64,000 nucleotides of DNA, taken from NCBI GenBank assembly GCA_023511455.1, contig JAIMBJ010000003.1, positions 62,001 to 126,000 of the forward strand, given 5' to 3'. The position numbers and the translations under genes were made by a program. Under the pieces are notes generated by a model. That model searched no databases and was not told where the DNA came from. It saw only the letters and a list, made by a program, of their open reading frames with translations. Source of the stretch: Bacillota bacterium (lineage in GTDB: Bacteria > Armatimonadota > HRBIN16). This document shows, in pieces, positions 30,236-31,430 of this stretch. Position 1 is the stretch's first letter; the number at the start of each line of letters is the position of its first letter.

Positions 30236-30264
30236 AAAAAGTCCCCCCTTCTGCTGAAGGGGGG
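30236..30264 (-). terminator. Intrinsic terminator of the riboswitch-controlled prepilin gene
   Basis: On the minus strand, stem CCCCCCTT/AAGGGGGG with a 6-nt loop is followed by ACTTTTT. It can also act on the plus-strand gene that ends just upstream, though without a T-run. Confidence 0.8.
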
Positions 30265-30308
30265 ATATAGCAATTCAACGCACGTTAAGCAGGAGGAACT
30301 CGTAAGCC

Positions 30309-31058
30309 TTAATCGCGGGTGAAGTGAGCGTCGGTCATCTGCGTTTGGGTCATGGGTTTGACATGTCCGTCGCAAAAGACCACGTTCGCGAACCCGCGAT
30401 GTTTTACAACCTGTGCGGTAGCGTCCACATCCTTCCGGTTATCGATGTGCCGGAAGTCCACCGTGGGGTTGTCCCACCACATGGAGGGCGGGTCGATGTA
30501 GGGCGTCTCCCACATGGTGCCGTCGCCGCCGTACCACGGCACGTTATAAAAGCCGCTATCCGCGAACATTACCTTCTCTGCAGGGCGCGGGAGCGATCCT
30601 TCCGATGCAGGGTTCTGCAGGTTGGGCCAGGTGCCCCAGTTGAAGCTGATGTAGATGTCCGACCCGATGTAACCCCAGTTGTAGCCGTAACCGTTGCCAT
30701 CGCCGAACCGGGTGCGCCCGCCCCAGCTGGGACATCGCTGAATCTGCCCGTTTTTCATATAGGGGTAGAGCAGACTCTGGTTTTTGTCCCAGACGTTGGA
30801 TTGCACCTCCCGCCCGAACCAGCACTGCCGCAGCGAGCCGCTATAGGCGTACTGGGCGATGGGGTAGGTCTGGTCGTAGTCCTGAACATACATCAGCGTT
30901 GCCAGACCGAGTTGCTTCATGTTGCTGAGGCAGCTGGTTTGACGGGCTTTTTCGCGCGCCTGCGCGAAGACGGGGAAGAGGATGGCTGCCAGTATCGCGA
31001 TAATCGCGATAACTACCAGCAGCTCAATCAGCGTAAAGGCGTTGCGTTTGTCAGGCAT
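30309..31058 (-). CDS. Prepilin-like protein (DUF1559/H-X9-DG family), riboswitch-linked
   Basis: A 249-residue type IV pilin-like protein. The leader is MPDKRNA, so position -1 is Ala instead of the usual Gly, followed by [20 protein letters not shown] with Glu at mature position 5. [21 protein letters not shown] and DYDQTYP follow. Near the end, [13 protein letters not shown] is an exact H-X9-DG motif. GGAGGG precedes ATG 31058. It is the only gene downstream of the cobalamin riboswitch at 31258-31379 and has its own terminator, so the transcript is monocistronic. It has no LacI gene beside it, unlike the other two prepilins. Confidence 0.9.
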
Positions 31059-31143
31059 GTTTCCCTCCTCACGAAAAAATAATCACCGCTGACGACGTGC
31101 GGAGGGAAACGTCGCCGCGCGGTGGTGGCGTACGGCGCGTCAA

Positions 31144-31174
31144 CAAAAAACCTGATGCCCTTTCGCACCAGGTT
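31144..31174 (-). terminator. Riboswitch expression-platform terminator
   Basis: On the minus strand, stem AACCTG/CAGGTT with loop GTGCGAAAGGGCAT (partly paired) is followed by TTTTTTG. It lies 84 nt downstream of the aptamer's P1 stem and 86 nt before the prepilin ATG, so it is placed to control the gene. Confidence 0.75.
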
Positions 31175-31257
31175 GGTTGAAACGCGCCCGATATTCACCT
31201 TCGGGTCACGTCCCCCTCCCTCCGCGAAGGGGTACCCTGCGATTGCAGGGAGTGACC

Positions 31258-31379
31258 AGCCGTCGCCGGGCATTCGGGCTCGCCTCCTGAACGGAGACAC
31301 ACCGCAGCGGGCCTGCGCCGGATTCTCACCGGACTTCCCCCGATATTTCAGCCTCAATGCGATTGAGGCGCAGACGGCT
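31258..31379 (-). ncRNA. Cobalamin riboswitch aptamer
   Basis: Minus strand. The core GGTGAGAATCCGGCGC (31315-31330) is followed by AGGCCCGCTGCGGTGTG, the hallmark of adenosylcobalamin aptamers. AGCCCGAATGCCCGGC (31265-31280) matches the B12 box. Closing P1 arms AGCCGTC (31373-31379 on the complement) and GACGGCT (31258-31264) pair perfectly. A promoter at 31402-31430 fires into it, a terminator follows at 31144-31174, and the next gene is a prepilin. Known relatives control B12 synthesis and uptake or B12-independent isozymes. Confidence 0.92.
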
Positions 31380-31401
31380 TACCCTTATTGGTTTTAGTGA
31401 T

Positions 31402-31430
31402 AGTGTATCACGCTTGTGTCCGGTTGTCAA
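31402..31430 (-). promoter_or_regulatory. Promoter of the riboswitch-prepilin transcript
   Basis: Minus strand: perfect TTGACA (31425-31430), 17-nt spacer, TACACT (31402-31407). Predicted start is about 15 nt before the aptamer P1 stem. Confidence 0.8.

Follow-up and report, generated by a model that had tools for sequence, protein, structure and literature searches.

A cobalamin riboswitch precedes a dedicated DUF1559 prepilin in Armatimonadota: conserved coupling and a possible role in corrinoid capture

The reported targets of cobalamin riboswitches include genes that serve B12 synthesis, transport of B12 or its precursors and cobalt transport, or that encode alternatives to B12-dependent enzymes (PMC3766115); neither pilin nor pili is mentioned in the main text of that large survey of riboswitch regulons. 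The prepilin loci of Armatimonadota described here carry the same aptamer family (RF00174) as the known regulons and, as in those regulons, cobalamin riboswitches of this phylum also precede BtuF/BtuC/BtuD, TonB receptors, CobU/CobT/CobS, PduO and a ribonucleotide reductase-like protein. The prepilin fills a slot comparable to that of BtuB, in the leading position or positions behind the riboswitch and upstream of BtuF-BtuD-BtuC, but it is a pilin-type protein lacking a beta-barrel, and the two are largely exclusive in riboswitch operons.

The Pfam domain PF07596 (DUF1559, SBP_bac_10) is shared by the prepilin and the DUF1559 proteins of Planctomycetes, which were described as a solute-binding family (PMC2754498); in the literature searched, nothing connected the planctomycete proteins with a vitamin or a riboswitch. 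The dextran-binding pili-like fibres of Planctomycetes (PMC5394234) are a precedent for surface fibres that bind a nutrient ahead of its uptake, although the ligand in that case is a polysaccharide and not a vitamin, and neither DUF1559 nor pilin is mentioned in that paper. Searches of the open-access literature, with subscription papers and most preprints outside their scope, found no link between cobalamin riboswitches and prepilins, between DUF1559 and either cobalamin or riboswitches, or between riboswitches and Armatimonadota. The terms 'cobalamin riboswitch' and 'pilin' do occur together as words in literature on the distant Clostridioides, Corynebacterium, Mycobacterium and Leptospira, the contents of which were not assessed. 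The aptamer and the pilin are thus of known kinds, and as far as the open-access literature goes their coupling, and the lineages so defined, are likely to be new, as an earlier note on this locus had supposed of a pilin target.

That note, made from the sequence of the window (the whole 64,000-nucleotide stretch of DNA that was analysed), had read a promoter, an aptamer, a terminator, a prepilin gene and a second terminator in this order on the minus strand, and had proposed that a cobalamin riboswitch controls the prepilin. The order held when assessed by cmscan, Pfam and sequence elements (Table 1). Two results would have refuted the proposed control, namely the lack of a significant Rfam match and a promoter between the leader terminator and the prepilin ATG, and neither was obtained. 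The RF00174 match exceeded the gathering cut-off of 31.5 bits (E = 5.1e-8, cmscan of the window) and covered the model end to end (1-189); no sigma-70-like site was found between the terminator and the ATG. The match is the only one to RF00174 in the 3.85 Mb genome to which the window belongs. With regard to the ligand subclass (selective for AdoCbl or for MeCbl/HyCbl), the window's aptamer has the short form and scored best with RF00174, two relatives scored best with RF01689, and one gave a match to RF01482 below cut-off. Both a full-length covariance match and a 5' leader with an expression platform, as required of a riboswitch, are present, and the riboswitch and the layout of its leader are established by the sequence; switching itself is not shown.

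Table 1. Features of the riboswitch-prepilin locus in the window
Feature	Position	Strand	Basis
Sigma-70-like promoter, TTGACA-N17-TACACT, with TG ahead of TACACT	31402..31430	(-)	sequence pattern; hexamers kept in nine genomes of the genus
Cobalamin riboswitch aptamer, RF00174, short form of ~143 nt	31248..31390	(-)	cmscan, 44.8 bits
Expression platform with hairpins 3' of P1; contains GCGGAGGGAGG (about 31226-31212), possible anti-Shine-Dalgarno partner	31200..31247	(-)	folding, alignment
Intrinsic terminator, stem 31174-31149 then U-tract	31145..31174	(-)	sequence; conserved in the genus
Anti-Shine-Dalgarno segment GUUUCCCUCC	31101..31110	(-)	predicted duplex with Shine-Dalgarno, -18.1 kcal/mol
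Shine-Dalgarno region GAGGAGGGAAAC, almost fully paired by prediction	31059..31070	(-)	folding and genus alignment
Prepilin, 249 aa, PF07963 N_methyl and PF07596 DUF1559, B12-riboswitch lineage	30309..31058	(-)	Pfam, tree
Prepilin terminator, independent of the leader terminator	30242..30265	(-)	sequence

The 342-nt leader had a predicted folding energy of -159.7 kcal/mol (z = -4.0). A feature absent from the earlier note was the anti-Shine-Dalgarno segment GUUUCCCUCC, which is predicted to pair with the Shine-Dalgarno region GAGGAGGGAAAC. The segment GCGGAGGGAGG, located 5' of the anti-Shine-Dalgarno, can also pair with it, at a predicted energy of about -24 kcal/mol against that of the anti-Shine-Dalgarno/Shine-Dalgarno duplex (Table 1), and could contend for it. 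As predicted from these elements, the leader carries two layers, an intrinsic terminator and a hairpin hiding the Shine-Dalgarno, and which layer acts can only be inferred. Antiterminator pairing was sought in the leader, and only weak, broken pairings were found, so that the route by which the terminator would be disarmed is not evident.

Alignment of the leaders from nine genomes of the genus, one of which (G005) ends before the Shine-Dalgarno, revealed that the promoter hexamers, aptamer, terminator and Shine-Dalgarno region are all conserved and that some stem pairs have changed on both sides with pairing retained. The upstream gene varies among these genomes, and riboswitch and prepilin remain joined. 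In one genome of the genus a divergent TonB-dependent receptor directly adjoins the riboswitch-prepilin unit (L037, G006 contig C122).

The extent of this pairing was determined by searching 101 Armatimonadota genomes with RF00174 and inspecting the DNA downstream of each match. Cobalamin riboswitches numbered 129, spread over 91 genomes and 32 families, and a prepilin start motif was present on the same strand within 450 nt downstream of 79 of them (73 genomes, 28 of the 32 families), compared with about 0.4% expected from the density of DUF1559 in the window's genome (67 matches). On the divergent side, used as a control, a prepilin start was found for none of the 129. The prepilin is the commonest first gene behind cobalamin riboswitches in the phylum, and the riboswitches linked to it include both short and long aptamers. 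Two tandem cobalamin riboswitches were observed ahead of a single prepilin gene in one genome (L022/L231, G054 contig C83, 28755-29225). At two loci of family f3 (L237 and L241) the prepilin is the second gene, a secreted-looking protein of about 350 residues intervening after the cobalamin riboswitch. At another locus (L013, G096 contig C310) the riboswitch lies ahead of a ThiC-like protein, which may be a BzaF-type synthase of benzimidazole, a lower ligand.

The converse search, in which GTDB contigs were queried with the C-terminal part of the prepilin alone and the RNA was not used, returned 25 close orthologues, the records of which bear the titles Armatimonadetes, Chthonomonadia, Chthonomonadales, Chthonomonas or just bacterium. 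A cobalamin-clan riboswitch was found just upstream of all 25, above cut-off in 24 and below it in the remaining one (L152; RF01482, 37 bits, E = 5e-5). An alternative view is that the element in the window is a decayed aptamer or an unrelated structure placed before a pilin gene by chance. The modest score of 44.8 bits would be in its favor, but the pairing recurs in 73 genomes, riboswitch scores at the phylum's prepilin-paired loci reach 126 bits, and the entire leader is kept in the genus despite the differing upstream gene; chance placement is therefore all but excluded. The conserved coupling is established, and the comparative genomics makes it very likely that a cobalamin riboswitch regulates a dedicated prepilin in most of the phylum, ligand binding by the RNA being inferred. 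The regulatory part of the earlier proposal is thus strongly supported.

The prepilin is encoded by the only gene between the riboswitch leader and its own terminator. Its PF07963 (N_methyl) and PF07596 (DUF1559; Pfam id SBP_bac_10) matches are both above cut-off, and with an N-terminal methylation motif and a DUF1559 domain it qualifies as a type IV prepilin of the DUF1559 kind; the N-terminus is GspG-like. Structure prediction was poor (mean pLDDT 46) and gave no usable view of a binding pocket, and a PDB sequence search with a profile of the C-terminal part found nothing significant. In the alignment of the tree rows the B12 lineage shows near-constancy at W80, Y126, N127 and R203 (window numbering), positions that vary more in the other prepilins; these residues are possible candidates for mutation, and no more than that.

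Five genomes in which DUF1559 matches were counted held between 7 and 67 each. When 122 prepilins were placed in a tree, those behind B12 riboswitches required only 3 label changes, against a mean of 39.9 when labels were shuffled, and other DUF1559 paralogues, including those from the same genomes, were placed elsewhere. One B12-riboswitch prepilin (L102) is an exception and groups with other DUF1559 proteins. Many forks of this quickly built tree have weak support; the clustering is clear and the exact branching is not.

A parallel was found for another vitamin. In 18 of the phylum's 30 TPP riboswitch loci (L171-L200) a prepilin of a separate DUF1559 lineage lies directly downstream, the divergent side giving none in 30, and in the same tree the TPP-riboswitch members required 2 label changes against 15.2 for shuffled labels. 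The window's genome has one such TPP riboswitch-prepilin locus (L250 1947-3701, contig C41), followed by a second prepilin, and when 20 further prepilin loci of this genome were scanned with Rfam, this TPP riboswitch was the only one found. FMN riboswitches, sought as a comparison in 41 genomes, were not found. That each of the two vitamins has its own riboswitch and its own prepilin lineage argues for ligand-specific proteins rather than general adhesion.

The genes accompanying the prepilin were analyzed next to its riboswitch, with family assignments checked on examples. The prepilin comes first and is followed by BtuF-BtuD-BtuC at two loci (L108, L090), by BtuF-BtuD at two (L105, L247), by BtuF plus CobU, CobT and CobS at three (L056, L110, L111), by CobO-CobU-CobT-CobS at one (L047) and by CobQ-BtuF at one (L089); at L021 it comes after a PduO-type adenosyltransferase. 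This operon company is established, and B12 genes lie beside the prepilin in 14 of the 55 loci with at least 3 kb of downstream sequence. In the remaining loci, among them that of the window, the prepilin either has no companion or lies next to unrelated or unknown genes, which counts against a role in capture. At five loci (L040, L092, L093, L009, L074) small secreted proteins sharing an N-terminal pattern (about GSG.N.A.LVIDF) are encoded downstream of the prepilin; one of them has a PEP-CTERM domain and no Pfam match. It is possible that the small secreted proteins of B12-riboswitch loci are further parts of the same process.

A cobalamin riboswitch was followed by a TonB-dependent receptor at 14 loci, and the prepilin was present in none of these. 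Counted per genome, 4 had both a riboswitch-controlled prepilin and a riboswitch-controlled TonB receptor, 69 the prepilin only, 10 the receptor only and 8 neither (Fisher P = 4.6e-6, uncorrected for shared descent). The two are therefore largely exclusive, with four genomes holding both. TonB receptors are few in the phylum; any Plug match at all was obtained in 58 of 101 genomes, mostly one or two in each. The sole TonB receptor of the window's genome (L249) is not near B12 genes; its neighbours we take to be, by eye from their sequences, a YfiR-like protein and a sensor kinase.

The same genome has full-length MetH, BtuF homologues, BtuC and a PduO-type adenosyltransferase, and the CobO, CobU, CobT and CobS of relatives, the few enzymes used as queries, found no match in it, suggesting, within the limits of this query, that corrinoid is salvaged. 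For processing and assembly of a prepilin it encodes one prepilin peptidase (Peptidase_A24) and gave five secretin matches, which together meet that need; the assembly ATPase was outside the search.

By analogy with known B12 riboswitches, ample cobalamin would most likely turn the prepilin off, a direction that is inferred. When B12 is scarce the prepilin would be made, cleaved by the prepilin peptidase and built into a pilus or pseudopilus; assembly of such a fibre is likewise an inference. The fibre would most likely capture corrinoid at the surface, or aid its passage across the outer membrane, for BtuF-BtuC; a riboswitch-controlled TonB receptor of the BtuB type is missing from most of the genomes concerned. 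The operons with BtuF, BtuD, BtuC or Cob genes, the near-exclusion with TonB receptors and the parallel TPP-prepilin lineage fit such a role, and with it the suggestion of the earlier note that the protein is a pseudopilin used for corrinoid capture or made under B12 limitation; corrinoid binding is not shown. In the absence of binding, transport or expression data, B12 binding and uptake are inferred, and we lean only slightly towards a prepilin that works at the cell surface to capture corrinoid or take it up. The explanation as a whole, a B12-repressed prepilin that captures corrinoid, is favored by a similarly narrow margin.

The main rival to this explanation is that the prepilin forms adhesive pili, made under vitamin starvation, that bind the cell to vitamin-producing neighbours or surfaces without the pilin itself binding a vitamin. 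In support of adhesion, pilin genes are many in Armatimonadota, the pili of Fimbriimonas ginsengisoli were proposed to serve attachment (PMC4072686), and B12 genes share an operon with the prepilin at only a minority of loci. On the other hand, B12 and TPP prepilins form separate lineages, although one adhesin could cover both starvations, and the near-exclusion with riboswitch-controlled TonB receptors together with the prepilin-BtuF-BtuD-BtuC operons indicates uptake. We regard adhesion as unlikely. A still less likely view takes the prepilin for a type II secretion pseudopilin, the system exporting at low B12 a protein that scavenges or releases corrinoid. The GspG-like N-terminus, the secretins encoded in the window's genome and the unknown secreted proteins after the prepilin in L040, L092 and L093, one with the PEP-CTERM domain, would agree with secretion, but separate B12 and TPP versions are not expected of a general secretion system and no exported protein is constant among the loci.

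A bolder form of the corrinoid-capture reading, which we hold to be slightly less likely than not, is that Armatimonadota have a new kind of vitamin acquisition, in which dedicated pilin-type binders of a cobalamin and a thiamin lineage, each with its own riboswitch, would take over vitamin capture at the surface from TonB-dependent receptors. If this were true, the large and mostly unexplained DUF1559 family may consist in part of ligand-specific capture pilins. The riboswitch link offers a testable function for one branch of this family, of which a genome may hold up to tens of copies, and hints at a way for vitamins to cross the outer membrane in bacteria with few TonB receptors.
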